A DNA stretch of 64,000 nucleotides, from NCBI GenBank assembly GCA_958295945.1, contig OY282386.1:4520204-4584203 (forward strand), written 5' to 3'. The notes under the pieces were generated by a model. The model did not search any database. It saw nothing but the letters and a program-made list of their open reading frames with translations, and was not told the DNA's origin. How positions within the stretch are numbered: the first letter of the stretch is position 1; each line of letters opens with the position of its first letter. Origin of the DNA: Candidatus Poribacteria bacterium (GTDB lineage Bacteria; Poribacteria; WGA-4E; WGA-3G). The position numbers were made by a program, and so were the translations under genes. Of the stretch, positions 10,249 to 47,969 are shown one piece after another.

Positions 10249-10252
10249 GACT

Positions 10253-17365: not shown

Positions 17366-17373
17366 GTCCCGTT

Positions 17374-17594: not shown

Positions 17595-17606
17595 GCAAGG
17601 GAGGAA

Positions 17607-18490: not shown

Positions 18491-18721
18491 GATATTGCAA
18501 ACGGCAGCAATGTTCAGATTACGATTTATGATACGAGAGGTAGTATAGTCCGCACACTTACACTTGGGAATCGTGCGGCAGGTTATTATACAGATAAGAA
18601 TCGTGCGGCATACTGGGATGGTCGCAATAGCGTAGGGGAACGGACTGCAAGCGGAGTCTATTTTTATCAACTGCAAACGGATAACGTTTCACAACTGCGC
18701 AAAATGTTGATTTTGAAGTAA
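18464..18721 (+). pseudogene. FlgD-like / sorting-tail fragment fused to pncB remnant
   Basis: From about 18497 the frame reads like the C-terminal FlgD Ig-like tail that ends many large exported proteins: VQITIYDTRGSIVRTL, YWDGRNSVGERTASGVYFYQL, and the end RKMLILK. There is no body domain or signal peptide upstream. The first 11 codons come from pncB-like sequence, so this is most likely the surviving 3' end of a lost gene rather than an 85-residue functional protein. Confidence 0.65.
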
Positions 18722-18735
18722 AATATGGAGAAAAA

Positions 18736-21246
18736 ATGAAAATAAAGTTATATACAATCTTTTGGATTATTATCCTCGTCTTAACTTCATTTTTACATAA
18801 ATCTTATGCAGCGGATTCGACACAACTGAACTTACCAGAAAATGCCAAATATCGACTTGGTAAAGGGAAAATAAGTAAGATAAAGTTTTCTCCTGATGGT
18901 TCTCGGATTGCTGCAGTCAGCAGCATTGGGATCTGGATTTACAATACACATAGCGGAAAAGAAATGTATCTTATACTTAATCCTGAATCAGGTGTCACTA
19001 GCGTTGCTTTTAGTCCAAATGGACTGAAATTAGCACTTATAGGATGGTGGACAATTCAGATATCTGATATAGAAACTGGAAAATCCCACATACCTATGAG
19101 TTCTGGAGGGCTCATAAGAAACGCTTCATTTAGTCCAGATGGACAAACACTTGCCTCTGCCTGTAGGGACAAAATCATACGTGTATGGGATGTGCAAACA
19201 GGAAAACGCAAGCAGATGCTAATAGGGCATACAGATGAAGTTGAGAGTGTGACTTTTAGTCCAGATGGACGAACTATAGCAAGTGCGGGTGATGACAATA
19301 CCATCCGATTGTGGAGCGTTGAAACTGGTGAACAGAAGTCCATTCTTACAGAACATGCAAAAGATATTGATAACCTTTTCTTCAGTTCAGGCAAACAAAA
19401 CATCGTAAGCGTAGGTAAAGATAGTACGTTTCAATTGTGGGATGCTGAAACTGGAGCAAAAAAACATACTTTTACACCGAGAGACCCCACGGAGGGTATT
19501 ACTTCCGTAGCCTTTAGTCCTAACGTAAGTACAATCGTAACAGTGAACGATAACAAAACTATCCAACTATGGGATAGGGTAGCAGAAAAACACAAATATA
19601 CGTTTCGAGGAGAGGCAGGACGTATCACTGATCTGGACTTTAGCCCAAATGCACAGATGATCGCAAGTATAAGTGACGACAACACTATTCGCTTATGGAA
19701 CGTTGAAACAGGAAAACGATTTCAAATACAGACAGAAGAATGGCACACACAGACCGTTTCATCGTTGACTTTCAGTCCAGATGGAAAAATATTTGCTACT
19801 AGCAGTGAAGACAAAACAATTATGGTATGGGATACAGACACTGGGAAACATAAATATACATTATATGGTCATACAGGAAAAGTGTATAGCGTTGCTTTTA
19901 GTCCAGATGGAAAAACAATAGCAAGCTCTGGACAATACAGCATTCGTCTTTGGAATGCTAAGACTGGAAGATGTCACAAAACACTCATGACACCACGTAC
20001 GAAAAATAGACATAATGGAGATGTCTATAGCATAACTTTCAGCCCAGATGGAGAAACAATTGCTACTTGCAGTGAAGACAAAACAATTCGTTTATGGTAT
20101 GCAAGAACTGGTCTACACTACCGCACAATAACAAAAAATAGTGGAAGTTTCCACGGAGTAGGTTTCAGTCCTGATGGAAAAACACTTATAAGCGCGAGCA
20201 GGGGGTCTGAAGACACAATTATTCGGTTATGGGAAACAGAAACTCGAGTTCTTAAACACACATTTTCAAGTAATATGAGAAGTGTTAATAGTTCATCATT
20301 CAGTCCAGATGGAAAAACAATAGCAATTGCTACTCACGACAATACTATTGAATTGTTGGATGTAGCGACTGCAAAACTAAAACAGTCTCTTGCTACTACA
20401 GAAGATGTGGATAACATAGAATGTGTAGCATTCAGCCCTAATGGAAAAATAATTGTAGGCTGTACCAACAACAGAAAAATCCTTTTGTGGAATACGAAAA
20501 CCTTAGAACACATACGAACTTTCACAGGACATAAAGGAACGATAACAAACGGGGCTTTCAATCCAGATGGACGAACAATTGCAAGTGCAAGCAGTGACGG
20601 GACGGTAATAGTTTGGGACATTTCCTCTTCTGTCATCAATTTAGATGCTACAGTTAGGTTATTCCCCTCAACAATACAAATTTCTTCTATTGGACAAAAG
20701 CTTACATTCTCCTTGAACATCATAGAAGGTGAAATTGTGGCTGGATATCAAGCAACCATTGATTTCGATCCCACCGTCCTCCGTTACGTTGAGAGCAAGA
20801 ATGGAGATTATCTGTCGTCTGATGCTTACTTTGTTCAGCCAATTGTCAAAAAGAATAACGTGACAGTTGCAGCAACAACTCATGGCACTGAAAGCAAAGG
20901 CGATGGCACCCTTGCGACACTTACGTTTGAGGTTATTGCTATCAATAATAGCACCCTAAAATTATCTAATGTCCTGCTTACTGACTCCGTAGGTATAAGT
21001 TCACATCCGCGCATTGAAAATAGTAAAATAACAAAACCAGCTGCCCCTACAATATTAAAAGAAGATGTGAACGGTGATGGTGTAGTAAACAATCTAGATT
21101 TGGAATCAGTTGCCGAAAGTCTTGGAATACTTGGTAATAATCGTTCAGATGTTAACGAAGATGGTGTTGTCAATATCGCTGATCTTACTTTAATTCAGAA
21201 GGCGATCGAAAAAGCGAATACAGTACCTTCTTCGAATGATAAATAG
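18736..21246 (+). CDS. exported protein with 14 WD40 repeats, cohesin and dockerin domains
   Basis: This 836-residue protein has an N-terminal signal peptide (hydrophobic residues about 6-25, end SYAAD). Fourteen WD40-type repeats follow (about 35-635), enough for two seven-blade propellers. A cohesin-like domain (about 640-765, with TFSLNIIEGEIVAGYQATI and LATLTFEVI) comes next. The end is a type I dockerin with two calcium loops (DVNGDGVVNNLDL and DVNEDGVVNIADL). Having cohesin and dockerin on one chain could allow self-assembly or docking to similar exported proteins. GGAG sits nine bases before the ATG. Blades 2, 5, 6 and 12 are the most degenerate. Confidence 0.88.
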   Translation: MKIKLYTIFWIIILVLTSFLHKSYAADSTQLNLPENAKYRLGKGKISKIKFSPDGSRIAAVSSIGIWIYNTHSGKEMYLILNPESGVTSVAFSPNGLKLALIGWWTIQISDIETGKSHIPMSSGGLIRNASFSPDGQTLASACRDKIIRVWDVQTGKRKQMLIGHTDEVESVTFSPDGRTIASAGDDNTIRLWSVETGEQKSILTEHAKDIDNLFFSSGKQNIVSVGKDSTFQLWDAETGAKKHTFTPRDPTEGITSVAFSPNVSTIVTVNDNKTIQLWDRVAEKHKYTFRGEAGRITDLDFSPNAQMIASISDDNTIRLWNVETGKRFQIQTEEWHTQTVSSLTFSPDGKIFATSSEDKTIMVWDTDTGKHKYTLYGHTGKVYSVAFSPDGKTIASSGQYSIRLWNAKTGRCHKTLMTPRTKNRHNGDVYSITFSPDGETIATCSEDKTIRLWYARTGLHYRTITKNSGSFHGVGFSPDGKTLISASRGSEDTIIRLWETETRVLKHTFSSNMRSVNSSSFSPDGKTIAIATHDNTIELLDVATAKLKQSLATTEDVDNIECVAFSPNGKIIVGCTNNRKILLWNTKTLEHIRTFTGHKGTITNGAFNPDGRTIASASSDGTVIVWDISSSVINLDATVRLFPSTIQISSIGQKLTFSLNIIEGEIVAGYQATIDFDPTVLRYVESKNGDYLSSDAYFVQPIVKKNNVTVAATTHGTESKGDGTLATLTFEVIAINNSTLKLSNVLLTDSVGISSHPRIENSKITKPAAPTILKEDVNGDGVVNNLDLESVAESLGILGNNRSDVNEDGVVNIADLTLIQKAIEKANTVPSSNDK

Positions 21247-32760: not shown

Positions 32761-32845
32761 AAGTAATTAATATCTTTGTGTGTCCACTGATATTTATTGC
32801 TATCCTTTTGGTTCTCAGGTGTCTCTAAAATTGGGGAGGTGTGTG

Positions 32846-33553
32846 ATGAAAATGGATAAGCAAATAAATGAAAATGATACACATTTAGATAAGAACAGTG
32901 ATGAGTCTGAAATGGAATTTGATGTAGCAATGGACACCTTTACACCAGAAGACAATCCTGAAATGCCACCTCATAGTGAGTTATCAGTAATCCAACAAAG
33001 TTTGGAAGCGTTACAAGAATTATTTGAGAAACAGATTGCTCGCAATCAGAATCAGACAGAGATGTTTGACAAGATTTATGCGGAGATGAAGGATTACAAA
33101 GAGAGTTTTCTTTTGGAAGTGCTTCACAAACCGATCATCCACAATCTGATTCAACTATATGACAGTTATCTATTGCTTGAATCTCAGCTTGATGTCATGC
33201 TTGAGACGGAAGATGGAGTTATATCTGATGGTTTAACACAATATCGGAATAATCTTGAGAATTTTCGATATAAATTGGAAGAGGTGTTGTATCGTTTGGA
33301 TGTAACACCTTATGCGGAGTCCTCAAAGACGCTTGATCGGCAACTGCATAAGACTCGTCAAACGATATCAACAGATGATCCTAAGCAGGACAAGACAATT
33401 GCTGAAGTGCATAAAATAGGGTTCAATTGGCGTGAGAAGGTATTTCGTCCGGAAGAGGTGACAATTTATCGTTATTCTGCTTCAACAGAAAACAGTGAAG
33501 AAATTGTAAGTAAATCTCCTTCTGGTGAGAAAGGGGGCAATACGGATGGGTAA
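32846..33553 (+). CDS. GrpE-like nucleotide exchange factor, first gene of the Hsp70/J-like block
   Basis: This 235-residue protein has an acidic N terminus, a long coiled coil (about 50-110) and a compact C-terminal part reading EVHKIGFNWREKVFRPEEVTIYRY, which follows the GrpE beta-domain pattern (IGF, then RPAEVxVY). It is divergent from canonical GrpE, so I call it GrpE-like. The ATG at 32846 follows GGGGAGGT. The Hsp70 gene starts within its last eight bases, and this coupling supports the role of exchange factor for that Hsp70. Confidence 0.7.
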   Translation: MKMDKQINENDTHLDKNSDESEMEFDVAMDTFTPEDNPEMPPHSELSVIQQSLEALQELFEKQIARNQNQTEMFDKIYAEMKDYKESFLLEVLHKPIIHNLIQLYDSYLLLESQLDVMLETEDGVISDGLTQYRNNLENFRYKLEEVLYRLDVTPYAESSKTLDRQLHKTRQTISTDDPKQDKTIAEVHKIGFNWREKVFRPEEVTIYRYSASTENSEEIVSKSPSGEKGGNTDG

Positions 33554-35141
33554 AGTCGTTGGGATTGACCTTGGGACGACATTTTCAGTGATTGCACATG
33601 TGAATGAACATGGACAAGCGGAGATAATACCGAACTTAGAGAGTGAGCGTATTACACCTTCGGTTGTGATGTTTGAAGACAATCTTGTGACGGTTGGGAA
33701 GATAGCTAAGCAAAACGCGCGGGCAGTGCCAGAACAGATAGTGGAATTTATTAAGCGCGAGATGGGTAAATCCAAGTTGGAATTCTTTCGCACCTTTGAT
33801 GAGAAGGACTATTCCCCCGAAGAACTCTCTGCGGTTATTCTCACGAAACTCAAGCAGGATGCTGAAACTTATTTGGGTGAAGAGATTACGGATGCTGTTG
33901 TTACTGTTCCTGCCTATTTTCACGATGCTGAGCGCGAGGCAACCCGAAACGCTGGTAGAATTGCGGGTTTGAATGTGCTGCAGGTTCTTAATGAACCGAC
34001 TGCTGCTGCACTTGCTTATGGGATGGACCAATTGGGTAGTAATCAGAATGTATTTGTGTTTGACCTTGGCGGTGGCACGTTTGATGTGACGATCATGAGT
34101 GTATCTGAGTCGGAGATACAGATGCTTGCGACAAATGGTGACCATCGTTTGGGTGGAAAAGATTGGGACGATAAAATCATCATGCATGTTGCGGAGATGT
34201 TTGAGATAGAACATGGAGAGAATCCGTTAGTTGACCTGCATTCATATCAAGACCTTCAATTGGATGCGATTACTGCGAAAGAATCTTTGTCGTTACGACA
34301 GAGAGCATTGATCGTATGTGGTTACAATGGCAAAACAACACGTGTTGAGTTGACACGTGAGAAGTTTGAACAACTTACATCGGACTTGCTTGAAAAAAGT
34401 CGTGTGCTGTGCAATGTTGTTTTATCTGAAGCAGACATGACCTGGGAAGATATTGATAAAATCTTATTGGTAGGTGGTTCAACACGGATGCCGATGATAC
34501 AAGAGATGATTGCTACACTTAGTGGGAAAGAGATAAATCCACATGAAGTCAATCCTGATGAGGTCGTGGCTATCGGTGCAGCGATTCAGGGAACTCTCCG
34601 TCAGATTACGGAGGGAGATACAGAGACTGTAGATATGCCCGAGGCAGTTATAGACCGTTTCATCGGTCCTGATGGTGTTCCGAAAGTAACTGTTACTGAT
34701 GGTGCGACACATAATCTTGGTCTTATAGTTCTTAATGCGCTGCGTGAGTATGTTATTCATGTGATGATACCTAAAATGACAGTGATTCCCTGTGAAGTAG
34801 CGGATAAGTTTTTGACGGTGGATCACAATCAACCCTCGGTGTTAATTGAAGTGGTGCAAGGACTTGAGCAGGACCAACGTAAAGATCAAATTGATCTGTT
34901 TGATGAATACAAATTGGGTGAATGTACACTGGAACTGCCCCCTGGTTTGCCGCAAGGGTCACCGATTGAGGTGAACTATAAATACAATTTAGACCAAAAT
35001 CTTGAGGTGACCGCTAAATCTCTCTCAAATGATGAGGCGACTGCTGTTTACGATCTTTTCTCTATTATTGAACGCCCTACGCTCAATGAGGAAGAGGTTG
35101 CCCAGGCTAAAACAGAGCTTCAGGATCTTGTTGTTGAATAG
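33546..35141 (+). CDS. Hsp70 family chaperone lacking the C-terminal lid
   Basis: This 531-residue Hsp70 has a complete nucleotide-binding domain: DLGTTFSV near the start, VTVPAYFHDAEREATRNAG, FDLGGGTFDVTI and LLVGGSTRMP. A beta substrate-binding domain ends near PIEVNYKYNLDQNLEVTA. It stops about 100 residues short of DnaK, so the helical lid and the usual C-terminal tail are missing. This suggests a dedicated chaperone or switch rather than the housekeeping DnaK. The ATG at 33546 overlaps the GrpE-like gene. The genes that follow encode proteins with a divergent J-like domain. Confidence 0.9.
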   Translation: MGKVVGIDLGTTFSVIAHVNEHGQAEIIPNLESERITPSVVMFEDNLVTVGKIAKQNARAVPEQIVEFIKREMGKSKLEFFRTFDEKDYSPEELSAVILTKLKQDAETYLGEEITDAVVTVPAYFHDAEREATRNAGRIAGLNVLQVLNEPTAAALAYGMDQLGSNQNVFVFDLGGGTFDVTIMSVSESEIQMLATNGDHRLGGKDWDDKIIMHVAEMFEIEHGENPLVDLHSYQDLQLDAITAKESLSLRQRALIVCGYNGKTTRVELTREKFEQLTSDLLEKSRVLCNVVLSEADMTWEDIDKILLVGGSTRMPMIQEMIATLSGKEINPHEVNPDEVVAIGAAIQGTLRQITEGDTETVDMPEAVIDRFIGPDGVPKVTVTDGATHNLGLIVLNALREYVIHVMIPKMTVIPCEVADKFLTVDHNQPSVLIEVVQGLEQDQRKDQIDLFDEYKLGECTLELPPGLPQGSPIEVNYKYNLDQNLEVTAKSLSNDEATAVYDLFSIIERPTLNEEEVAQAKTELQDLVVE

Positions 35142-35512: not shown

Positions 35513-36775
35513 ATGTCCAAGCTCGAAGAATATATTGCGTTTATCAGCGCGCTCAGAACGGCATCACCGACAATAACAGATGAACAACGTAAGGGTTTTG
35601 TTCGGTTAGGTGTTCAGGAATATGGACTCACTGTTGATGAAGCCATGAACATTTTGAACCTATCAGGAATACAGGTCGGTGAGCAAGTTGATTATTTTCA
35701 GGTATTGGGTTTGTCAATTTCTGATTTTGAACACCGAAGCGAAGCAGAGATTGTTCACCATGTTGAAACAGCACACAAAAAGTTGTATAGTGAATCGTTG
35801 AAAGCGGGTGGTCGTCCTCGTGCTGATGGCAAGACAGAGGAGCAGTGGCGGACACTCTTGAATCAAGCGCGTGATTCCTTGATAGACCCAAAAAGAAGAT
35901 TGGGATATCTGTCAACGATACAACAAGAGACGGTAAGTATTGATAAGGCGTTGAGGACTCCGATACTGGACAACATGGCCCTGATTCCTGCTGGTGAGTT
36001 TCAGATGGGTAGTGCTGATGACGAAGCTTATGGTGATGAACATCCTATCCACTCCGTTTATCTGGATGCGTTTTATATTGATAAATATCCTGTGACAAAC
36101 TCACAGTATAAGGCATTTGTGGATGAAAACCCAGAATGGAACAGGCAAAACATTCCTCATGAATATAGTGATGTTGACTATCTAAAGCATTGGAGAGCGA
36201 ACAGTTTTCGTGATTCTCAAGCCGAACACCCAGTTGTCAATGTGAGTTGGTATGCTGCGATGGCGTTTGCGAAATGGACAGGAAAACGTTTGCCAACTGA
36301 GGCAGAATGGGAAAAAGCAGCACGCGGTGGTGTCAGTGGTAACAAGTACACGTGGGGTGATGATGCCGATCTGTCTATGGCAAATTATGACTGGAACATC
36401 GGCGAAACGACACCTGTTAGGCAATATCCTCCGAATGGGTATGATTTATATGATATGTGTGGGAATGTATGGGAATGGTGTCTTGATGCATATCATGATG
36501 GTATTGCTATGGGGTCATCGCCTAGTAACCCGATTGTTGGAGCGAATTCGATTGAGTGGGTTGAGAAGCATTTTTTAGATGTTGAAACGAACAGGGTTCT
36601 GCGTGGTGGTTCTTGGCGGATACCTGCATCTTTAGTAAGAATTGCGAATCGTAATGCAGAGTCACCTTCCTTTTCACTGAATGTAATAGGATTTCGTTGT
36701 GTTTGGACTGTGCCATCTGGACATGGTGCGGAAAGTCAATCTGCAGGAATCCAATCAAATACTACCAATTCCTAA
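35513..36775 (+). CDS. J-like module fused to FGE-like domain (array member 1)
   Basis: This 420-residue protein has the shared N-terminal module: a helical segment (1-55) and a J-domain-like segment (59-133) with YFQVLGLS, then AHKKLYSESLKAGGRPRADG and LNQARDSLIDPKRR. These match the J-domain pattern of YYEVLGV, then AYEVLSDPEKR, but with PRADG where HPD should be. The C-terminal FGE-like domain (about 153-410; SUMF1/EgtB/PvdO superfamily, C-type-lectin-like fold) has GEFQMGS, KRLPTEAEWEKAARGG, DMCGNVWEWCLD and VLRGGSW with GFRC. It has no CxxxxC after RGGSW, so formylglycine synthesis is unlikely and ligand binding is more plausible. It follows the Hsp70 gene by 371 bases. Confidence 0.85.
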   Translation: MSKLEEYIAFISALRTASPTITDEQRKGFVRLGVQEYGLTVDEAMNILNLSGIQVGEQVDYFQVLGLSISDFEHRSEAEIVHHVETAHKKLYSESLKAGGRPRADGKTEEQWRTLLNQARDSLIDPKRRLGYLSTIQQETVSIDKALRTPILDNMALIPAGEFQMGSADDEAYGDEHPIHSVYLDAFYIDKYPVTNSQYKAFVDENPEWNRQNIPHEYSDVDYLKHWRANSFRDSQAEHPVVNVSWYAAMAFAKWTGKRLPTEAEWEKAARGGVSGNKYTWGDDADLSMANYDWNIGETTPVRQYPPNGYDLYDMCGNVWEWCLDAYHDGIAMGSSPSNPIVGANSIEWVEKHFLDVETNRVLRGGSWRIPASLVRIANRNAESPSFSLNVIGFRCVWTVPSGHGAESQSAGIQSNTTNS

Positions 36776-36787: not shown

Positions 36788-38191
36788 ATGTCTAAACGAG
36801 ATGAGTATATTTCATTCATCAATGAGATAAAGTCAATTTTTCCAACAATTTCTGATGGACAGCGAAAAGAGCTTCTTCGTAGAGCGGTTCAACAGTATAA
36901 CGTTTCGGTTGATGAGGCAGTTGATATATTGAACGCATCCGGGTTGATTATCGGTGAGCAGGTTGATTATTTTGAGGTGTTGGGTTTATCAATGTCTGCG
37001 ATTGATAACCTATCGGAAGTAGAAATTATCTCTTGGGTAGATGCAGCACATAAAAAGTTATATGGTGAATCATTGCAGGCTGGTGGTCGTCCTCGTGCTG
37101 ATGGTAAGTCAGAAGCAGAATGGCGTACGGTCTTGAATCAAGCGAGAGATGTACTTACGAATCCACAGCGGCGACAAGAACACATGGGTGAACTGAGTGT
37201 TAAGCAAACAGAAGAATCAAAAGTCACTATTCTTCAAAATTCAAAGACCGCAATTACCAAACCATATTTACAGATAGAAGATACTGCTCTTTCGGAACAT
37301 AAAGGATCGGTCAATTCTGTTGCATTTTCTCCAGATGGGGCTTCCATTGTAAGTGGAAGTTCGGATAATACAGCAATGGTCTGGGATGTACTCAGTGGAA
37401 CACTGAAATGGACATTTATTGGACATCAAGATGAAGTAACTTCGGTCATTTATTCTCCCGATGGTAAGACAATTGCAAGTGGTAGCCATGATAACACAGT
37501 TCGTTTGTGGGATTCTGACACAGGTTTACTCAAAAATACTCTCACTGGCCATTACGGGGCAGTAAGTTCAGTCGTCTATTCACCTGATGGCAAGACACTC
37601 GCGAGTGGTAGTCACGATAGAACGGTACGCTTGTGGGAAGCTAATACAGGTGAACTAATATATATTCTCAAAGACCATAGCAATTGGGTGACTTCTCTCG
37701 TCTTTTCACCAGATGGTAGGACAATTGCCAGTGGTAGTTATGATAGGACTGTTCGTGTATGGGATGTAGTTATGTTTTACAAAAAATTTACATTGAGTGG
37801 TCACAAAAATAGTGTAAATTTAGTGGTTTATTCACCTGATGGCAATACTATTGCAAGCACGACCCTAAATGGTAATATTCTTATGTGGGATGCTGCAACT
37901 GGTGAACGACAAAACTTTATGGCAGGACACCTCTCTTGGTTTAATTCTTTATCTTTTTCACCCAATGGTTCAACACTTGCCTGTGGTAGTTATTATGGTT
38001 TGATACGTCTTTGGAACACTACCAGAAATGTATTTTTTTCTACACTCACTGGACATAAGTCCACAATAAAATCCCTTGCATATTCGCCTGATGGACAAAT
38101 TCTTGCAAGTGGTAGTACGGACAAGAATGTACGTTTATGGGATCTGAATCGTGATCGTGATGCGTTTGACAATCCTATGAATTATTTCTAA
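36788..38191 (+). CDS. J-like module fused to 7-blade WD40 propeller (array member 2)
   Basis: This 467-residue protein begins with the array's common module (J-like segment about 59-133, with YFEVLGLS, then GGRPRADG and LNQARDVLTNPQRR). A linker of about 35 residues leads to seven WD40 repeats (about 170-455), one closed propeller. The blades carry SPDG turns and end with W-D/N/E. Blades are regular, suggesting recent amplification. It starts 12 bases after member 1. The propeller is about 75% alike to that of member 3 by eye. WD40 propellers bind proteins or peptides, so this may be a partner-recognition arm. Confidence 0.86.
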   Translation: MSKRDEYISFINEIKSIFPTISDGQRKELLRRAVQQYNVSVDEAVDILNASGLIIGEQVDYFEVLGLSMSAIDNLSEVEIISWVDAAHKKLYGESLQAGGRPRADGKSEAEWRTVLNQARDVLTNPQRRQEHMGELSVKQTEESKVTILQNSKTAITKPYLQIEDTALSEHKGSVNSVAFSPDGASIVSGSSDNTAMVWDVLSGTLKWTFIGHQDEVTSVIYSPDGKTIASGSHDNTVRLWDSDTGLLKNTLTGHYGAVSSVVYSPDGKTLASGSHDRTVRLWEANTGELIYILKDHSNWVTSLVFSPDGRTIASGSYDRTVRVWDVVMFYKKFTLSGHKNSVNLVVYSPDGNTIASTTLNGNILMWDAATGERQNFMAGHLSWFNSLSFSPNGSTLACGSYYGLIRLWNTTRNVFFSTLTGHKSTIKSLAYSPDGQILASGSTDKNVRLWDLNRDRDAFDNPMNYF

Positions 38192-38203: not shown

Positions 38204-39592
38204 ATGGCGGACCGAGATGATTTCATTACAATAATTCGTGCTCTTAGAAATGCTTCTTCGACTATCTCTAATGAACAACGAAAGGGTCTCATACGCCAGG
38301 CAGTGCAAAATCATGGCATATCTGTTGAGGAGGCTACAGAGATTCTTGCATCTCTTGGTTTGGTTGTTGGTGAAGAGATCAGTTATTTTGATGTGTTAGG
38401 ATTTTCTATTGATGCGTTCCGAAACATAGATGAAGCAGAAATCCAGAATCTGGTTGAGGCTGCACATAAGAGATTGTATAGTGCTTCGTTGAAAGCGGGA
38501 GGTCGTCCTCGTGCTGATGGAAAGTCAGAAGCAGAATGGCGTACGGTCTTGAATCAAGCAAGAGATATACTTACAAACCCGCAGCGGCGACAAGAACACA
38601 TAGGTGAACTAAGTGTTAAGCAAACAGAAGAATCAACGGCCGCAGTTCTTCAAAATTCAAATACCGCAATTACCAAACCACATTTACAAATAGAAGATAC
38701 TGCTCTTTACGAACATAAAGGATCGGTCAATTCTGTTGCATTTTCTCCAGATGGCACTTCCATCGTGAGTGGAAGTTCAGATAACACGGCTGTTATATGG
38801 GATGTTGTAAGTGGAGAATTGAAACACACTTTACATGAACATGTAGGCGATGTTACTTCGGTTGTGTATTCTCCCGATGGTGAGACAATCGCAAGCGGCA
38901 GTAGTGATAAAACAATTCGTTTGTGGAATTCTGAAACAGGAGAACTCAAGAATACTCTCATTGGACATAAAAGTGAAATTCGTTCAGTTAACTATTCACC
39001 TGATGGCAAGACTCTTGTGAGTGGTGGCAATGACAATAGGGTATGTATATGGAATGCAATCAGTGGAACATTTTCAAATATTCTCGTTGGACATAGCAAT
39101 TTGGTGAGTGCGGTCGCATTTTCTCCTGATGGTAAGACAATCGCAAGTGGTAGTTATGATACTTCTGTGCGTTTGTGGGATGTAACCAAATATAGATGTC
39201 GCAACTCCTTGGAACATGATATGAAGGCAGTTAGTTCAGTTGTTTTTTCTCCAGACGGTAAAACCATTGCAAGTAATAGTCTATACGGTAATTTGCATCT
39301 GTGGAATCCTTCAACTGGGGAACAACAAAACTATTTTGCTGGGCACCGAACTGAATTTAATGCTATTGCATTTTCACCTGATAGTTTGACACTTGCATCT
39401 GGGAGTTATTATGGTTTGATACGTCTATGGGATATTGCTTCCGGGAAATTTACTTCAACACTTACAGGACATAAATCCACCATAAAATCTCTTGCGTATT
39501 CACCTGATGGACAAATCCTTGCAAGTTGTAGTACGGACAAGAGTGTGCGTTTATGGAATCTAAAACGCGATCGTGACGCGACTGATTCTTAG
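38204..39592 (+). CDS. J-like module fused to 7-blade WD40 propeller (array member 3)
   Basis: This 462-residue protein has the same layout as member 2. Its N-terminal module is almost identical at DNA level to that of member 4 (39722), over about 240 bases with one change seen. From codon 108 onwards it instead follows member 2. It is therefore a chimera of two neighbours, a clear sign of gene conversion or unequal exchange. The leader TGGTATAATTGT before the ATG is also shared with member 4. Confidence 0.86.
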   Translation: MADRDDFITIIRALRNASSTISNEQRKGLIRQAVQNHGISVEEATEILASLGLVVGEEISYFDVLGFSIDAFRNIDEAEIQNLVEAAHKRLYSASLKAGGRPRADGKSEAEWRTVLNQARDILTNPQRRQEHIGELSVKQTEESTAAVLQNSNTAITKPHLQIEDTALYEHKGSVNSVAFSPDGTSIVSGSSDNTAVIWDVVSGELKHTLHEHVGDVTSVVYSPDGETIASGSSDKTIRLWNSETGELKNTLIGHKSEIRSVNYSPDGKTLVSGGNDNRVCIWNAISGTFSNILVGHSNLVSAVAFSPDGKTIASGSYDTSVRLWDVTKYRCRNSLEHDMKAVSSVVFSPDGKTIASNSLYGNLHLWNPSTGEQQNYFAGHRTEFNAIAFSPDSLTLASGSYYGLIRLWDIASGKFTSTLTGHKSTIKSLAYSPDGQILASCSTDKSVRLWNLKRDRDATDS

Positions 39593-39721
39593 AGGTATTT
39601 CTAATACAGGTAATAGAAATGAAATTCCAATTTTAACTTGAATGTCCGAGGCGCAATGAATTGCGCGACTACGAACCGGAATTCCTTATAGGGTTGTTAT
39701 TTTCAGAAATGGTATAATTGT
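39593..39721. repeat. gap with REP-like repeat and duplicated leader
   Basis: GAATGTCCGAGGCGCAATGA (from 39641), then ATTGCGCGACTACG, forms a GCGCAAT/ATTGCGC hairpin followed by CTAC. AATGGTATAATTG before the next start duplicates the leader of the preceding gene. Confidence 0.55.
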
Positions 39722-40945
39722 ATGGCAAACCGTGATGACTTCATTACCATAATTCGGGCACTGAGAGACGCTTCTCTGACTATTTCTAACGATCAACGAA
39801 AGGGTCTCATACGCCAGGCAGTGCAAAATCATGGCATATCTGTTGAGGAGGCTACAGAGATTCTTGCATCTCTTGGTTTGGTTGTTGGTGAAGAGATCAG
39901 TTATTTTGATGTGTTAGGATTTTCTATTGATGCGTTCCGAAGCATAGATGAAGCAGAAATCCAGAATCTGGTTGAGGCTGCACATAAGAGATTGTATAGT
40001 GCTTCGTTGAAAGCGGGAGGTCGTCCTCGTGCTGATGGAAGGACGGAGGAACAGTGGCGAACACTCCTCAATCAGGCACGCGATGCACTCATCCACCCAG
40101 AATCACGAAACGCACCACTCATAGCTGCAGATTTTGTCGAAGATGAGGCAGAGAAACCACCTGTTCCTTTACATCTTCTTGAGGACATGGAGCTTATACC
40201 TGCAGGTGAGTTTAAAATGGGTGGCAGTGATGACGAAGCATTTCAAGATGAATTGCCTGTTCATGATGTTTACCTTGATGCATTCTATATTGACAAATAT
40301 CCTGTAACCAATGCACAATTCAAGGAATTTGTTGATGCGAACCCACAATGGGAAAAACCGCGCGGGTTCACATTTTTTCATTCCTTTAAATTCTACGATG
40401 GATATTACCTACTCCATTGGGATAAGGATAACTACCCAGAAGAGAGAAATGACCATCCCGTTGTTCATATCAGTTGGTATGCTGCGATGGCTTATGCACG
40501 GTGGATTGGCAAACGATTACCTACTGAAGCAGAATGGGAGAAAGCAGCACGTGGTGGATTACAAGACCAAAAATATCCGTGGGGTGACATGATTGATGGT
40601 GGCAAAGCAAACTATGAAAAAAGACGGCAACAGACTACACCTGTTGGACGTTATCCTGCAAACGGATACGGTTTATATGATATGGTTGGCAATGTGTGGG
40701 AATGGTGTCTTGATGAGTGGGATAAGAGTTTTTATGCATTTTCGTCAAAAGATAATCCGATATGTGGTGGGAATATTGAAAGAATAGTTCAAAACTATAC
40801 GAATTCTAAATCACATCATGTTATACGCGGAGGATCGTGGTACAATTCAGTTGAGAATGTCCGGACTGCTAAGCGATCTGGTGTCTTACCAACATACGCA
40901 AATTCTAACATAGGATTTCGGTGTGTAATACCTGTTGCGTCATAG
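39722..40945 (+). CDS. J-like module fused to FGE-like domain (array member 4)
   Basis: In this 407-residue protein the N-terminal module has FDVLGFS, then AHKRLYSASLKAGGRPRADGRTEEQW and LNQARDALIHPESR. The FGE-like domain (about 155-405) has GEFKMGG, RLPTEAEWEKAARGG, DMVGNVWEWCLD, then VIRGGSWYNSVENVRTAKRSG and GFRCV. The catalytic cysteines are missing. The region after RGGSW, which in this fold forms the exposed ligand face, is quite unlike that of the other members. The first 317 bases are shared with member 3, which has a WD40 C terminus, so the same module is being joined to different heads. Confidence 0.85.
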   Translation: MANRDDFITIIRALRDASLTISNDQRKGLIRQAVQNHGISVEEATEILASLGLVVGEEISYFDVLGFSIDAFRSIDEAEIQNLVEAAHKRLYSASLKAGGRPRADGRTEEQWRTLLNQARDALIHPESRNAPLIAADFVEDEAEKPPVPLHLLEDMELIPAGEFKMGGSDDEAFQDELPVHDVYLDAFYIDKYPVTNAQFKEFVDANPQWEKPRGFTFFHSFKFYDGYYLLHWDKDNYPEERNDHPVVHISWYAAMAYARWIGKRLPTEAEWEKAARGGLQDQKYPWGDMIDGGKANYEKRRQQTTPVGRYPANGYGLYDMVGNVWEWCLDEWDKSFYAFSSKDNPICGGNIERIVQNYTNSKSHHVIRGGSWYNSVENVRTAKRSGVLPTYANSNIGFRCVIPVAS

Positions 40946-40999: not shown

Positions 41000-42292
41000 A
41001 TGTCTAAACGCGATGAGTTTGAAGCATTTATCAGTAGACTCAAAGCAGTTTCACCTACTATTACAGATGAACAACGAAAAGGTCTTTTGCGGCAGGCATC
41101 TTTGGAGTTCGACGTTCCAGTTGATGATGCGGTTGAGATTCTACGAGCTGCGGGATTGGTTGTTGGAAGAAATGAAAACTATTTTGAGATATTGGAAATC
41201 TCGATTGCTAAACTCAATAACCTAAGTGAAGATGACATCACTACCTATGTTAATGACACACACAAGAAACTATATACAACATCATTAGCTGCGGGTGGAC
41301 TACCACGTCCTGATGGGAGGTCACAAGAACAGTGGCGTAATGTTTTGAATCAAGCGCGTGATACATTGATTGACCCATTGAAAAGACGTGAACACATTTC
41401 AATGCTTCAACATTATATGGACGAACAAAAATTAGATGAAACTGAAAGCATACCAAATAAACAAGCATCAGAAATTGTAGATTTACCTCGGCAAGAATTG
41501 AGTCATTTAACTATACCTGATGATTTAATTGTGCCAGAAGATATGGTATTCATTCCCGCTGGTGAGTTTCTAATGGGCAGCGAGGATGAAGAGGCACAAG
41601 ACGATGAACAACCGAATCATGTTGTTTTTCTTGATGCATACCTGATGGATATATACCCAGTCACCAATTCAGAATTTAGAAATTTTATTAATGCTAACCC
41701 AAAATGGAGAAAAACAGATGTCAATGGAGAACATATCTCTATTGAATTTCAGGATGGGGGTTATTTAAGAGATTGGGAGGACAATACATTCCCTAATGGT
41801 AAAGCGGAGCATCCTGTTACTCAGGTGAGTTGGTATGCTGCGATGGCGTATGCCCAGTGGGTAGGGAAACGGCTACCAACAGAAGCGGAGTGGGAAAAAG
41901 CAGCACGTGGGGGTATAGGGGGAAAGAAATACCCTTGGGGTGATTCCATCGATGGAGTCGACTTCAATACAGACGATACTACACCGATTGGAAGCACTCC
42001 TGCTAATGGTTATGGGTTATATGACATGAGTGGTAATGTGTGGGAGTGGTGTCTTGATGCTTATGATCCAGAATACTATTTAGTTTCCCCACCAAAAAAT
42101 CCAATTTCAGATACAGCCAACGTGCCTTGGGTGGTGAATAACTTTAGAAATATCAAGTCTCCACGCGTTTTACGTGGTGGTCCTTGGGATATTGATTCTC
42201 AAGGTGTACGCGTTTCTCACAGATTCAGCGGCAATCCGATGGATACATTTCCTACATTTGGATTCCGATGTGTGAAAGAAATTGTGAATTAA
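41000..42292 (+). CDS. J-like module fused to FGE-like domain (array member 5)
   Basis: This 430-residue protein has a J-like segment reading YFEILEIS, then THKKLYTTSLAAGGLPRPDGR and LNQARDTLIDPLKRREHI. Here PRPDG retains a Pro-Asp pair as in HPD, but without the histidine. After a linker of about 45 residues comes the FGE-like domain with GEFLMGS, DMSGNVWEWCLD, then VLRGGPWDIDSQGVRVSHRF and GFRCV. I use the ATG at 41000 with GGAG at 40988; the GTG at 40994 would sit too close to it. The gap to member 6 is 24 bases. Confidence 0.84.
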   Translation: MSKRDEFEAFISRLKAVSPTITDEQRKGLLRQASLEFDVPVDDAVEILRAAGLVVGRNENYFEILEISIAKLNNLSEDDITTYVNDTHKKLYTTSLAAGGLPRPDGRSQEQWRNVLNQARDTLIDPLKRREHISMLQHYMDEQKLDETESIPNKQASEIVDLPRQELSHLTIPDDLIVPEDMVFIPAGEFLMGSEDEEAQDDEQPNHVVFLDAYLMDIYPVTNSEFRNFINANPKWRKTDVNGEHISIEFQDGGYLRDWEDNTFPNGKAEHPVTQVSWYAAMAYAQWVGKRLPTEAEWEKAARGGIGGKKYPWGDSIDGVDFNTDDTTPIGSTPANGYGLYDMSGNVWEWCLDAYDPEYYLVSPPKNPISDTANVPWVVNNFRNIKSPRVLRGGPWDIDSQGVRVSHRFSGNPMDTFPTFGFRCVKEIVN

Positions 42293-42316: not shown

Positions 42317-43678
42317 ATGGCTAACCGTGAAGAATATATCAGTGTTGTCAACACACTTAAGGCAACTTTACCGACAATTACCATGCAGCAACGGGTGGTT
42401 TTACTCCAACAAGCCGTGCAGCAATATGGACTCTCCGCAGAAGATGCGGAAGAAATCTTGAAGACATCTGGATTAGTCGTTGGTGAAAGTGTGAACTACT
42501 TCCGGGTGTTAGGTCTATCTTTAGATGAAATCCAGGGCGAGAGTGAGAATGATATCCTCAGTATCATAGAGGAAACTCATCAAAAATGCTATGGTGAATC
42601 GTTGCGTGCGGGTGGACTGCCGCGTCCAGATGGAAGAACACAAGAACAGTGGCGAACAGTTTTGAATCAAGCGCGGGATGTGCTGAAAGATCCACAAAAA
42701 AGAGTGGAACACATAGCAATCATAAATACTGAAACTTCGCATTTTGATGAGGCATTTCCACAAGACGGCACTACAAATCTTAATCATACTTCAATCCAAC
42801 TTGCTATACCAGAAAATATGATGTTGATCCCAGAAGGTGAATACCGTGGGAGGAGTATTGAATCTTCTTTAGGAGATTCTAAATTTGACACACCGGATCA
42901 TACAATTCATGTTGATACGTTCTATATTGACAAATTTCCAGTAACGAATGCACAATTTAAGGAGTTTACAGATGCCAATCCGTTATGGAGAAAAACAACA
43001 AGGCGTAATGAATGGAACAAAATTAAACAGAAAATGTCTATTTTTAGTAGGTTTCACGATGGAAACTACTTAAATCAATGGTATGAGAGTAATTTTCCAA
43101 TTGGTATGGAAAACCATCCAGTAACTAATGTGAGTTGGTATGCGGCAATGGCTTATGCGCAATGGGCAGGAAAACGTTTACCCTCTGAAGCCGAATGGGA
43201 AAAGGCCGCACGTGGTGGATTAATTGGACAACACTATCCTTGGGGTGATAATCTGGATCCTGACATGGCTCATTGTGGAAAAAGTGTAGGGACGACCTAT
43301 TCTGTTGGACTATACCCACCAAACAACTACGGTTTACATGATATGGCTGGGAATGTGTGGGAGTGGTGTCTTGATGAGTATGCATTGAATTTCTATGCGA
43401 CATCACATAAACAAAACCCAATTGCTGGTGTCAACACACCAGAGGAATTGGATGAATTATTGAGCAATTTTAGAGTTTTCTCAACTGACCGTGTTCTAAG
43501 GGGAGGTACGTTGTTCACAACATCAGAACCGATGCCAATTGCCAATCGGTATGGTTGTTCACCTCTTAACACGGTCCTACGTATTAAGCTTTTAGTAATA
43601 CGGCAACCTACCTCTTCTACAAAGTTTGCCGCAAATGTTGGGTTTAGATGTGCTTGGGATGTTCGGTTAAAATCGTAA
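42317..43678 (+). CDS. J-like module fused to FGE-like domain (array member 6)
   Basis: This 453-residue protein has a J-like segment with YFRVLGLS, GGLPRPDGR and LNQARDVLKDPQKR. Its FGE-like domain has an extra basic stretch (RRNEWNKIKQKM) and a long insertion after RGGTLFTTSEP, before GFRCAW. Both features are shared only with member 8 (46545), so these two are sister genes separated by other members. The opening strand reads EGEYRGRS instead of GEFLMGS, the most degenerate version here. The ATG at 42317 is preferred over the in-frame TTG at 42311. Confidence 0.83.
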   Translation: MANREEYISVVNTLKATLPTITMQQRVVLLQQAVQQYGLSAEDAEEILKTSGLVVGESVNYFRVLGLSLDEIQGESENDILSIIEETHQKCYGESLRAGGLPRPDGRTQEQWRTVLNQARDVLKDPQKRVEHIAIINTETSHFDEAFPQDGTTNLNHTSIQLAIPENMMLIPEGEYRGRSIESSLGDSKFDTPDHTIHVDTFYIDKFPVTNAQFKEFTDANPLWRKTTRRNEWNKIKQKMSIFSRFHDGNYLNQWYESNFPIGMENHPVTNVSWYAAMAYAQWAGKRLPSEAEWEKAARGGLIGQHYPWGDNLDPDMAHCGKSVGTTYSVGLYPPNNYGLHDMAGNVWEWCLDEYALNFYATSHKQNPIAGVNTPEELDELLSNFRVFSTDRVLRGGTLFTTSEPMPIANRYGCSPLNTVLRIKLLVIRQPTSSTKFAANVGFRCAWDVRLKS

Positions 43679-43820: not shown

Positions 43821-45185
43821 ATGTCAAAAAGAGAAGAATTCATCGCAGCAATTAATGTCCTTCGGGCTGCTTCTCAGTCTATTACGTCAGAACATCGAAA
43901 AGGACTTCTTCAGCAGGCAGTACAGGAATATGGTCTTACGGTAGAGGATGGAACGGCAATATTGAATGCTTCAGGATTGATTGTCGGTGAAGGAATTAAC
44001 TATTTAGATGTCCTAGGACTAACTTTAGATGAAATTGAAAACAAAAACGATGCTGAAATGTTGGTTCTCGTTAACGAAGCACATAGAAAAGCGTATAATG
44101 GTTCGTTACAGGCTGGTGGATTACCGCGTGCGGATGGTCGAACGCAGGCACAGTGGTACACTTTGTTAAATCAGGCGCGTGACACGTTAACACACCCTCA
44201 TAAACGTCGTCATTATCTGGAAAAATACGTGCACCAAGAAAACGTATCAAAGAAAACTGAAGAATCTATCCAAAAAACAGAACCTGAAATACAAGAACCT
44301 AAATCAACTTTACCAAAAACCCCACAAACTACCATAAGGACTACATTCTCCAATTCCAGTTCTACTCAAAAGCTGCAACCTCCCGATAATACACCTCAAT
44401 CCATGGTATTCATTCCCGGAGGTGAGTTTCTGATGGGAAGCGATAATAAAGATGGTGAAAGTGATGAAAGCTTGATACATTCTGTCTACGTGGATTCGTT
44501 CTTTATGGACAGATACCCTGTCACTAACGCACAATTCAAGATGTTTGTAGAGGCTAATCCACAATGGCGTAGACCTACTGACTTGTACTTTTGGAACATA
44601 AAGTGGAACTCAACAAAGAAAAAACCTGAACACGATGGTGATTACTTGAAACATTGGCATGAGAACAACTATCCAGATGATAAAGCGAATCATCCTGTGA
44701 CTTGGGTGAGTTGGTATGCTGCGATGGCTTATGCGAAGTGGTTGGGTAAACGTTTGCCTTCAGAAGCGGAATGGGAGAAAGCTGCGCGTGGTGGTGTGTC
44801 TGGACAGAATTATCCTTGGGGAAACACAATTGATTCTACTATGGCAAACTATAACAACACGAATGGTGGCCCGTCTGAAGTTGGACAATATCCAGTAAAC
44901 GGATACGGTCTCTATGATATGGCAGGAAATGTGTGGGAATGGTGTCTTGATGTGTCCGATGCTGAGTTCTATTTAATATCATCACAACACAATCCGATTC
45001 ATGGCGCGCCTTCAGTCAACTCAGTTACGAACGAATTTACTGATGAAAGTGTCCTACGAGTTTTACGTGGTGGTTCTTGGATTGATTCTCCGCTATTACT
45101 TCGGACTGCTTTCCGTTATAAGAATAATCCGAGACGGACTCTCGGAAGGATCGGTTTTCGTTGTGTGAAAACAGTTACCGCTTAA
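43821..45185 (+). CDS. J-like module fused to FGE-like domain (array member 7)
   Basis: This 454-residue protein has a J-like segment with YLDVLGLT, AHRKAYNGSLQAGGLPRADGR and LNQARDTLTHPHKRRHYL. The linker (about 135-190) is rich in Thr, Pro, Ser and Gln and much longer than in other members, giving a flexible tether. The FGE-like head has GEFLMGS, DMAGNVWEWCLD, then VLRGGSWIDSPLLLRTAFRYK and GFRCV. There is no catalytic CxxxxC. A REP hairpin separates it from member 6. Confidence 0.84.
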   Translation: MSKREEFIAAINVLRAASQSITSEHRKGLLQQAVQEYGLTVEDGTAILNASGLIVGEGINYLDVLGLTLDEIENKNDAEMLVLVNEAHRKAYNGSLQAGGLPRADGRTQAQWYTLLNQARDTLTHPHKRRHYLEKYVHQENVSKKTEESIQKTEPEIQEPKSTLPKTPQTTIRTTFSNSSSTQKLQPPDNTPQSMVFIPGGEFLMGSDNKDGESDESLIHSVYVDSFFMDRYPVTNAQFKMFVEANPQWRRPTDLYFWNIKWNSTKKKPEHDGDYLKHWHENNYPDDKANHPVTWVSWYAAMAYAKWLGKRLPSEAEWEKAARGGVSGQNYPWGNTIDSTMANYNNTNGGPSEVGQYPVNGYGLYDMAGNVWEWCLDVSDAEFYLISSQHNPIHGAPSVNSVTNEFTDESVLRVLRGGSWIDSPLLLRTAFRYKNNPRRTLGRIGFRCVKTVTA

Positions 45186-45296: not shown

Positions 45297-45647
45297 ATGT
45301 ATCCTATAAAGGAATTGCCTGAACACATAGCAAAACGTGTGACAATTACACTTGGTCCTGAAGAGCTTGTAAGAATTGACAATGACGATATTCTGCGAGC
45401 TGTTGTAGTGGATGCCGCAGGACGTGAATCGGCTGTCTTATTGCAGCAAATTCAGGGGAAGCATGAGGACTATTTAGATGTGCTTGATGGACAAGTGGAA
45501 CAATCAGATATTAGTTTTATCTATAATACCATTGTACAGAAGGCTATTTCAGATGTTACCATAGATGAATCTGTTGCTATCCTAAAAAAACAACAAAAAA
45601 CCTTACGTCAACAGGTAGAGTCAAGAAATAGCATCAACTCTAAGTAA
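45297..45647 (+). CDS. hypothetical protein in the J-like array
   Basis: This 116-residue soluble protein does not match a family I know. The N-terminal half looks like a small alpha/beta unit (RVTITLGPEELVRID), and the C-terminal half is helical with a Lys/Gln-rich end. GAGGGA stands six bases before the ATG. It has its own promoter-like sequence and lies between array member 7 and the DUF2971 gene, so it could be an accessory or regulatory part of the block. Confidence 0.55.
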   Translation: MYPIKELPEHIAKRVTITLGPEELVRIDNDDILRAVVVDAAGRESAVLLQQIQGKHEDYLDVLDGQVEQSDISFIYNTIVQKAISDVTIDESVAILKKQQKTLRQQVESRNSINSK

Positions 45648-45759
45648 ATATTCACTTGTCATTTGTCTGTGATTATACAGAATGTCAGATGTCTGATCGT
45701 TTGGCAAATTGATCTTTTGCACACAACAAAGGATCATAATGAAAAACAAGATACCTTGA

Positions 45760-46551
45760 ATGACTGAAGAAAACTCAAAAAGTATAGTTCATGAATTTCT
45801 CCATGTCCCTCCTAAAGAAGCGATCTTATGGAGATATATGGACTTCGTAAAATTTATATCTCTATTAGAGACAAACACCTTATTTTTTGCAAGAGCAGAT
45901 AAACTCGGAGACCCGTTTGAAGGATCGTTTCCAAAGAAAAATGCAACTGTTCGTACTACTTTAACTCCAAGACTTTCTGTGGAAGATATTTTCAAATATG
46001 CTCACGTAACACAACACCTAACACGGTTTACATTAGTTAGTTGCTGGCATGAAAGCGAGTATGAATCTGAGTCTATGTGGAATAGATATGCAAATGAAAA
46101 TAGTGGTATAGCAATTAGAACTTGTGCTGATACGCTTTCACGAAGTTTCTTGTCTAAAGAACAAATTCATATAGGACGTGTTCAGTATGTTGATTATGAT
46201 ACAGACACTATTCCAGAAGACAACGGATTGATACCTTATCTATATAAAAGAAAGAGTTTTGAGTCTGAACGAGAAGTAAGAGCAATTATTCAGAGACCTC
46301 CTGCTGGAATTGATATAACTCAATTGAGAAGTAGCATACAACAATTATCTCTTGGAGAAATCGGTGAATGGAAGGATTTCTGTGATATTGGATATTCCTA
46401 TGAAGTGAATCTTGAAATATTGATAGAAGAGGTACTTGTGGCTCGTTTAGCCCCTGACTGGTTTCTACAACTCGTCCAACAAGTCGCGAAACGCTACGGT
46501 TTGGAAGCACCTATAAATAGATCTGTCCTTGCGGATACACCGTCATGGTGA
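45760..46551 (+). CDS. DUF2971 family protein
   Basis: This 263-residue protein has the DUF2971 pattern: LWRYMDFVKFISLLETNTLFFARADKLGDPFEG near the start, SCWHESEYESESMWNRYA in the middle and YKRKSFESEREVRAI later. The family has no established activity; its members are often found in accessory and defence-associated gene clusters. The next array member overlaps its stop by seven bases, so it is probably translated together with member 8. Confidence 0.78.
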   Translation: MTEENSKSIVHEFLHVPPKEAILWRYMDFVKFISLLETNTLFFARADKLGDPFEGSFPKKNATVRTTLTPRLSVEDIFKYAHVTQHLTRFTLVSCWHESEYESESMWNRYANENSGIAIRTCADTLSRSFLSKEQIHIGRVQYVDYDTDTIPEDNGLIPYLYKRKSFESEREVRAIIQRPPAGIDITQLRSSIQQLSLGEIGEWKDFCDIGYSYEVNLEILIEEVLVARLAPDWFLQLVQQVAKRYGLEAPINRSVLADTPSW

Positions 46552-47969
46552 TTCAAAATACTAAAAAACATGCCAAAATCAGCAATCATAGAAATATGAA
46601 CCAACAGAACACCGAACGCGAAGAATTCATTTCAGTCATCAATACCCTCAAAGGACTTTCATCAACGATCACCGATGAACAGCGGAAAGGACTGCTGCAA
46701 CAGGCAGTGCAACAGCACGGTTTTTCCGTTGATGAAGCCAAAGATATTCTTATAACATCAGGATTAGCGGTCAATGAAATAATCAACTTTTTTGAGGTGT
46801 TGGAACTTTCTATTGAAAAACTGCAGGATCAAAGTGATAAACAAATCAAGACACTTGTAGATGAAGTCCACAAGAGACTTTACAGTACTTCATTACGTGC
46901 TGGTGGACTTCCACGGCCAGATGGCAGGACTCAGGAACAGTGGCGTAACTTGTTGAACCAAGCACGTGACACACTTGCCAACCCACACAAACGTCTTGAG
47001 CATATCGCTAAGATACAAAATAAAAATTTGCACGATGTTGATTCCATTTTAAATGTAGACCTTATTTCACCAGAACAAGATGAGATTCCAGTAGACGATC
47101 CAACCTCGCTAAGCATCCCAATTCCAGATGATATGGTCCTCATTCCTGCAGGTGAGTTTCTCATGGGGAGTAAGAATGAGAATGCTGACGACCGTGAAAA
47201 GCCGATACATAATGTCTATGTTGATGCGTTTTGTATTGATAAATATCCTGTAACAAACAGACAATACAAAGAGTTCATTGATGCTAACCCAAATTGGCAG
47301 AAACCTACTAAACAGTATAGACGTAAAAAAACCAGACAGATAGTGTATTCTATACTCAAGAAGTATCACGGACGAAACTATCTGACTGATTGGATTGAGA
47401 ACGATTATCCAAAAGAAAAAGCCAACCATCCCGTGACTCATGTGAGTTGGTATGCTGCGATGGCTTATGCGGAATGGATAGGTAAACGGTTACCGACAGA
47501 GGCGGAATGGGAGAAGGCAGCACGCGGAGGAACAGTAGCACGAAGATATCCATGGGGAAATAGGACGGATCCTGCTAATGCTGAATATAGTAAGGATGTC
47601 GGTGAAACATATCCTGTAGGAAAATATCCTGCAAATAACTACAGTGTGCATGACATGGTTGGCAACGTTTGGGAGTGGTGTTTGGATTTATATGATGCAG
47701 ATTACTATGCTAATTCTACCATTCGCAATCCAATTGCCGGTGTGAATACAGATGAAGATTTGGAGATGTTAAAATCTGATTTTTGGAACATTAGGACAGA
47801 TCGTGTACTACGGGGTGGGACACATTTTACTTCATCAGAACCTATCCATATCGCTGCACGTTGGGGTGGGAAACCTATTCAAACCAGTTATCTGAGTTCG
47901 CTATATTTTTCACAGTATATGGCAAACATAGGGTTTCGATGTGCATGGGACGTAAGGTTTAAATCATAG
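46545..47969 (+). CDS. J-like module fused to FGE-like domain (array member 8)
   Basis: In this 474-residue protein the module is preceded by about 20 extra residues if the ATG at 46545 (overlapping the DUF2971 stop) is used; a second ATG at 46596 has no good ribosome site. The J-like segment reads FFEVLELS, then VHKRLYSTSLRAGGLPRPDGR and LNQARDTLANPHKRLEHI. The FGE-like head has GEFLMGS, DMVGNVWEWCLD, then VLRGGTHFTSSEPIHIAARWGG, a long loop and GFRCAW. Its long loop and basic insertion (QYRRKKTRQ) group it with member 6. Confidence 0.84.
   Translation: MVIQNTKKHAKISNHRNMNQQNTEREEFISVINTLKGLSSTITDEQRKGLLQQAVQQHGFSVDEAKDILITSGLAVNEIINFFEVLELSIEKLQDQSDKQIKTLVDEVHKRLYSTSLRAGGLPRPDGRTQEQWRNLLNQARDTLANPHKRLEHIAKIQNKNLHDVDSILNVDLISPEQDEIPVDDPTSLSIPIPDDMVLIPAGEFLMGSKNENADDREKPIHNVYVDAFCIDKYPVTNRQYKEFIDANPNWQKPTKQYRRKKTRQIVYSILKKYHGRNYLTDWIENDYPKEKANHPVTHVSWYAAMAYAEWIGKRLPTEAEWEKAARGGTVARRYPWGNRTDPANAEYSKDVGETYPVGKYPANNYSVHDMVGNVWEWCLDLYDADYYANSTIRNPIAGVNTDEDLEMLKSDFWNIRTDRVLRGGTHFTSSEPIHIAARWGGKPIQTSYLSSLYFSQYMANIGFRCAWDVRFKS

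Follow-up and report, generated by a model that had tools for sequence, protein, structure and literature searches.

The window, by which we mean the whole stretch of 64,000 nucleotides of DNA that was analyzed, comes from a Candidatus Poribacteria genome assembled as one 5.34 Mb contig. From position 31468 the gene order is a sulfatase, a GrpE-like gene, an Hsp70 gene, and then eight genes, a1 to a8, whose N-terminal parts are a common module of about 136 residues without a meaningful Pfam match. When the whole genome was searched with this module, a1 to a8 were the sole matches. The C-terminal parts, or heads, belong to the FGE-sulfatase family (Pfam: PF03781) in six of the eight genes and are seven-repeat WD40 domains in the other two, a2 and a3. 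In window coordinates, the genes are:

from 31468: sulfatase gene, directly 5′ of the array genes; its position next to the array is conserved
32780..33553, + strand: GrpE-like nucleotide exchange factor (PF01025, E 2.7e-11)
33525..35141, + strand: array Hsp70, 538 aa (PF00012, E 2.9e-123), with Q at the DnaK R167 position
35513..36775, + strand: a1, module and FGE-like head
36788..38191, + strand: a2, module and WD40 head
38204..39592, + strand: a3, module and WD40 head
39722..40945, + strand: a4, module and FGE-like head
41000..42292, + strand: a5, module and FGE-like head
42317..43678, + strand: a6, module and FGE-like head
43821..45185, + strand: a7, module and FGE-like head
46596..47969, + strand: a8, module and FGE-like head

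Two small genes are inserted between a7 and a8 (45297-46551) and are present in the arrays of genomes G016 and G013 too; one of them is a DUF2971 gene with a PADLOC match to PDC-S31-like (E 1e-17). Among the PADLOC defense models a3 matches a HEAT-ARM model through its WD40 repeats, and two FGE-type array proteins, the Hsp70, and GrpE gave no defense-model match. Between a3 and a4 (39650-39677) lies a dispersed 28-base palindromic repeat, GGCGCAATGAATTGCGCGACTACGAACC, found at 52 places in the genome at up to 3 mismatches (0 for a reversed control); we found no link between this repeat and the recombination breakpoints described below. Across the class the module was found in 29 of 82 genomes, which fall in one family only and in 3 of 19 genera among the matches listed. 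A scan of IMG/VR for a virus source gave 41 pattern matches, none of them a relative, and a plasmid search with the module gave no match.

An earlier note on this DNA had singled out 38278-38520 in a3 and 39796-40038 in a4 as the same but for one visible change, with much more divergent bases before them and different heads after them, and had proposed recombination within the array. The two stretches are indeed identical at 242 of 243 positions, the sole change being at 38424 (A/G), and upstream of them 15 of 74 positions differ between 38204-38277 and its counterpart (Fisher p 1.3e-9). On the 3′ side the next difference is at 38523 and differences resume at once. As the note had it, a3 leads into WD40 and a4 into FGE-sulfatase PF03781, and a3 follows the WD40 gene at 36788 (a2) after the tract, which is true from codon 107. 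A 14-base leader, AATGGTATAATTGT, precedes the start codon of both genes, and 5′ of it nothing can be aligned. None of the 276 within-genome module pairs has a longer exact run than the 151 bases shared by a3 and a4 (median 12.5). Over codons 1-106 the two genes differ at 16 of 236 polymorphic sites, and a concordant run of 113 sites was matched by 31 of 100000 shuffles. Left of the switch in a3, 112 informative sites favor a4 and 7 favor a2; right of it, 50 favor a4 and 338 favor a2 (0 of 20000 shuffles). Synonymous conservation at the breakpoint block, which is the most conserved stretch, is only slightly above that elsewhere, and we therefore claim no recombination hot spot. The segments of a3 and a4 that figure in the exchanges are:

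38276..38522, + strand: tract of recent conversion in a3, between the differing positions 38275 and 38523, with an internal mismatch at 38424
39794..40040, + strand: matching tract in a4
39708..40040, + strand: cassette gained by a4, about 333 bases, comprising the 14-base leader and codons 1-106
38582..38707, + strand: a3 codons 127-168, with 0.89-0.94 identity to a2 and both at 0.68-0.75 identity to the G016 WD40 gene

The sister genome G016, a genus mate (the genus mates being “Candidatus Poribacteria” MAGs), carries a syntenic array on loci L037 and L038. Its order is a1 (FGE-like), an extra FGE-like gene, a2 (WD40), and then genes 9548, 8251, 6916, and 5582, all FGE-like; on L037, 8251 is assigned as the orthologue of the a4 head and 6916 as a5. 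In G016 the a3 position is occupied by L037:9548-10909, whose leader is that of a3, whose module has 77-90% identity to that of a3 per 10-codon step over codons 1-70, and whose head is FGE-like instead of WD40. The leader and module of a3 are orthologous to those of this gene, and from codon 97 to 107 on the head of a3 follows a2, the switch point lying between nt 318 and 320 of the gene when read against a4 and a2 and between nt 288 and 289 when read against the two G016 genes. The head of a4 is orthologous to L037:8251-9474, its sister in the head tree (support 99), whereas in the module tree a4 is sister to a3 (97) and then to G016 9548 (90), and its leader is of the a3 type. These trees used 98 near-complete modules, including the window genes, and excluded partial, frame-broken, and J-only ORFs (L063-L068). 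The AU tests, which used 48 of the 98 modules and 41 heads from genomes chosen for closeness, rejected a4 with its head orthologue on the module data (p-AU 0.00048) and a4 with G016 9548 on the head data (p-AU 1.9e-53). Since its head is sister to 8251 and its module and leader are of the a3 type, a4 took the cassette at 39708-40040, the 5′ edge being set by the end of leader similarity to a3 and the 3′ edge by the switch between nt 319 and 321 of the gene.

The proposal that the head is replaced while the module stays thus stands for a3 only, where G016 has the same leader and module and another head; a4 is the opposite case, in which the head was kept and the leader and codons 1-106 were replaced. 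For the head at the place of a3, either the window genome or G016 may hold the newcomer in what is a three-way fork. Over codons 1-30, a3, a4, and G016 9548 are about equally far apart (0.77-0.90), and over codons 31-70 a3 equals a4; the near-identity of a3 and a4 is accordingly a later event on top of an older exchange, because their first 25 codons are as diverged from each other as from G016. The WD40 heads of a3 and a2 are 76% identical, and that of a2 is 86% identical to its G016 orthologue; codons 127-168 of a3 we attribute to one more exchange with a2, likewise late. The array Hsp70 (33525-35141) is 97% identical to its G016 counterpart (L037:16923-18539), compared with about 73-83% for orthologous array proteins. 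The related-genome comparison found turnover of both heads and modules, and on these sequences recombination is more varied than first proposed, with a replaced module (a4), a differing head (a3), and a later conversion tract.

Mosaic genes recur in other genomes. In g14, L048:12278 combines a module like that of the neighboring WD40 gene with a head like a1, and further switches are seen in g13 (L052:4596 and L052:11571), in g07 (L049:9050), and in a gene pair common to G006, G012, and G015 (for which three rows, taken from two of these genomes, were tested). For all 11 mosaic triples, which come from several genomes, a permutation test gave 0 of 20000 shuffles; these p-values are optimistic because the cases were picked after the trees had been seen and sites were treated as exchangeable. 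Of seven orthologue controls, six gave 7180 to 20000 of 20000, and the control a1, which has a weak internal switch, gave 121. The breakpoints in the other genomes are scattered (codons 88-105, 116-120, 149-154, 194, and 212-223). In 172 of 388 comparisons (86 of 88 members used, two truncated heads being excluded), module and head have different best-match partners, and the two halves of the head do so in 43 of 388; the two halves of the module disagree in 204 of 388, so part of the module/head mismatch reflects weak signal or exchange inside the module. The sharp breakpoints on which the earlier note relied are strongly supported by the switch tests and the trees, and we have very little doubt that recombination in the array is real.

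Two extra modules in G016 lie on separate contigs, in frame before transporter genes:

L039:5502-6578, + strand: module and TRAP DctQ subunit, G016, leader included
L040:4064-6130, - strand: module and ABC permease, G016, leader included

Compared in steps of 30 bases, these two modules are for the most part 80-97% alike along about 480 coding bases, and the genes also share the 30 bases before the start; past the module they are unrelated. The DctQ open frame is 361 aa in G016 and 177-211 aa in 16 genus genomes (17 searched), and the permease frame is 691 aa in G016 and 517-531 aa in all 17 other genus genomes. These orthologue frames are too short for a module, so the transporter orthologues in the genus lack it. 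No target duplication was recognized at either G016 graft, and in the search for a donor the longest matches to the compared array genes were only about 68% identical. In the window genome, the intergenic stretch 5′ of the permease (L100; C1:222400-225800) has about 280 extra bases relative to G004 and G001, which lie just where G016 carries the module cassette; no degenerate cassette was seen in that stretch, and the extra bases are not module-derived. Other heads that follow the module are ankyrin repeats (L064) and sequences with weak HYDIN/Ig-like matches (L062).

The transporter grafts bear on two other readings of the mosaics. That different modules and heads were joined artificially, in assembly or binning, is hardly credible: the relatives are MAGs in many contigs, but the window genome is a single contig, mosaics recur in several genomes, and the G016 stretches concerned contain no N and show synteny on both flanks of the transporter genes. 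It is also unlikely, in our view, that we are seeing ordinary concerted evolution only, a random conversion of tandem paralogues in which the module has no special role. Such a process would explain why tandem neighbors convert in several genomes with scattered breakpoints and why modules differ between paralogues about as much as heads do; however, homologous conversion of paralogues alone does not place a module before two non-homologous transporters and before WD40, ankyrin, and Ig-like heads.

The AlphaFold2 model of the module (pLDDT 85.5) consists of a three-helix part (residues 2-50) and a second part (residues 58-136) with helices at 61-65, 77-97, 109-124, and 126-135. Aligned with VIA-align, residues 58-136 reach a Z of up to 9.9 (66 residues at 1.6 Å), with mostly J domains among the matches listed, and the best 20 Foldseek matches are nearly all J-domain entries, with a probability of up to 1.00 at an E of 0.04 and no E below 0.001. 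No solved structure matches the module by sequence, and the Pfam DnaJ model did not match the window module at E up to 1, where only an unrelated weak match was returned. In J-domain proteins the HPD tripeptide sits between helices II and III; none of the 98 modules has it. Fourteen columns, not counting the start Met, are conserved in at least 97% of the 98 modules, and 13 of these fall in residues 92-129, which make up the helix II-loop-III side of the J-like part. The N-terminal subdomain (residues 1-57) is a three-helix fold that matches homeodomain/HTH and other small helical kinds; we name no family for it, as its structure matches reach only Z 5.7 or less. By its model, then, the module is a small helical domain joined to an HPD-less J-like domain that has the fold of type IV J-like domains.

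An Hsp70 gene adjoins the array in all 20 genomes with full-length modules whose loci were read. At the position of DnaK R167, located by ungapped alignment to solved DnaKs, these 20 proteins have Q in 19 cases and H in one (L041), and the canonical full-length DnaK, the other Hsp70 of the window genome, has R. For the numbering of R167 and its role in the J response we follow PMC7289447, which also describes R167H in DnaK as a suppressor of DnaJ D35N, an HPD mutant. The arginine marks the J-responsive Hsp70s and is not general to the Hsp70 family. Given that HPD is gone from the modules and R167 from the Hsp70, both sides of the contact appear to be lost, and the array seems to encode an Hsp70-J pair lacking both halves of the HPD-arginine contact. 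The reported suppression raises the prospect that the array pair is a natural case of a rewired Hsp70-J contact, as the analogy with R167H suggests it may be. In G028 one ORF joins an Hsp70 NBD/ATPase domain, the three-helix part of the module, and a GrpE-like end, a fusion that links Hsp70, module, and GrpE parts and falls short of proof for docking.

The repetition of the module on so many proteins would also fit a domain for self-association or complex assembly that unites the heads, with Hsp70 and GrpE assisting assembly rather than serving as the docking partner. Its separate three-helix N-terminal fold, the two dispersed transporter fusions, and the precedent of effector-associated domains (EADs), which likewise repeat on many effectors in the conflict systems treated in PMC7159879, are in line with such a role. 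We nonetheless think it improbable, given that the conserved columns lie on the J helix II-loop-III side and that the residue change in the Hsp70 partner is at the corresponding position. For docking on the Hsp70, the location of the transporter fusions away from any listed array implies that it need not depend on gene neighborhood.

Paralogous loci (L063 and L065-L068) contain genes that start with the J-like part alone, without the three-helix part. Hsp70 is present in four of these five loci (L067 is incomplete). At the R167 position, four J-side Hsp70 proteins of the paralogous loci carry Q and one carries K, and all three vWA-fused or second Hsp70 proteins that were read carry R. Loci L063, L064, L065, L066, and L068 encode caspase-PEGA-FGE proteins, Hsp70-vWA fusions, GrpE, a second Hsp70, and J-like genes. 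This set (L063-L066 and L068) looks like a chaperone-centered conflict system in Poribacteria.

PF03781 was found in 75 of the 86 family members scanned, a hand-picked set of which one (L037:15282) has no module. Solved FGEs align well with the a4 head, and the cysteine pair visible in them as C-x4-C is missing from it. In formylglycine-generating enzymes this cysteine pair belongs to the active site. The motif is found in none of the six FGE heads of the window and in 2 of 86 full heads across all genomes. The sulfatase gene directly 5′ of the array, which is conserved beside it, invites the idea that the FGE-like heads are enzymes activating the neighboring sulfatase and that the array is a sulfatase-maturation operon. 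We consider this very improbable in view of the missing cysteine pair in a4, the rarity of C-x4-C, whose two occurrences are both outside the window, and the WD40 heads, which have no such role. We take the FGE-like heads as putative binding domains of the C-type-lectin kind, by analogy with the FGS domains of conflict systems, for which such a role is proposed in PMC7159879 and PMC10907252. Diversification of these heads by a retroelement was rejected for the window genome, as the reverse transcriptase model (PF00078, RVT_1) had 0 matches in the whole genome and was positive in 3 of 14 controls.

Taken as a whole, the explanation that we regard as probable is that a docking cassette is reassorted with exchangeable heads by recombination between neighbors and serves a private Hsp70. 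On this reading a1 to a8 are a tandem family in which the N-terminal docking cassette reassorts with C-terminal heads via homologous recombination between neighbors. The sequences show that a4 received the a3-position type of leader and codons 1-106 and that the later tract 38276-38522 homogenized a3 and a4. Residues 58-136, a predicted J domain without HPD, would dock proteins on the neighboring Hsp70, itself apparently devoid of the arginine through which the HPD aspartate is normally sensed; GrpE would recycle this Hsp70, and the heads (an FGE/C-type-lectin fold without the cysteine pair, a WD40 propeller, or elsewhere ankyrin or Ig-like domains) would choose what reaches it. All modules would serve the same Hsp70, and this, we propose, is why swaps are tolerated. 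Toward the docking step itself, for which adjacency and the matched residue change argue, we lean with some reserve; HPD-less J-like proteins need not be co-chaperones, as Arabidopsis CJD1 (PMC3196505) indicates. More tentatively still, the array may represent a self-contained Hsp70 branch in which the arginine-less Hsp70 works only with HPD-less J cassettes and its reach is widened, in bacteria of this family, by pasting cassette and leader onto new proteins, both sensor heads inside the array and membrane transporters outside it.

What is observed in the genomes of these sponge-dwelling bacteria is a J-like module, beside its own Hsp70, that appears to have been moved repeatedly by recombination onto different partner domains, with one and the same putative docking piece now bearing different sensing heads. 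The array offers naturally occurring domain swaps in which both breakpoints and donors are readable from sequence. It also points to an Hsp70-J pair of an altered kind. If docking is true, the cassette would be a portable means of linking any protein to a private chaperone; if the self-contained Hsp70 branch is real, the cassette would act as a mobile co-chaperone tag through which new clients or targets enter the circuit of that chaperone.

Literature searches with the term sets used found no paper on this array, and its parts can be compared with several known systems. The type IV J-like proteins Pam16/Magmas and CJD1, described in PMC8605242 and PMC3196505, respectively, likewise have a J fold without HPD, and Pam16 works beside Hsp70 and a GrpE-type factor. 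Unlike in Pam16 and CJD1, the J-like part of the array makes up half of an N-terminal cassette that recurs on lectin-like, WD40, and transporter heads, and the neighboring Hsp70 itself lacks the HPD-sensing arginine. The GAP1-N2 GTPase and FGS conflict systems (Kaur et al. 2020, PMC7159879) resemble the array in having a dedicated HSP70 and GrpE beside variable proteins, some DnaJ domains, and FGS (FGE-like) heads, and the related Poribacteria loci add caspase, vWA-Hsp70, and Ig-like parts to the likeness; the array differs from them in its J domain without HPD, its eight tandem exchangeable heads, and a genome with no reverse transcriptase. Like EADs, the module is a short adaptor that recurs within one genome on many paralogues whose partners differ; unlike them, it has a J-like fold and stands beside a co-encoded Hsp70/GrpE pair. 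Finally, diversity-generating retroelements with FGE/CLec targets (PMC10907252) share with the array variable proteins with FGE-type C-type-lectin heads, whereas the array genome has no RVT_1 match and the diversity of the array comes from the exchange of parts.
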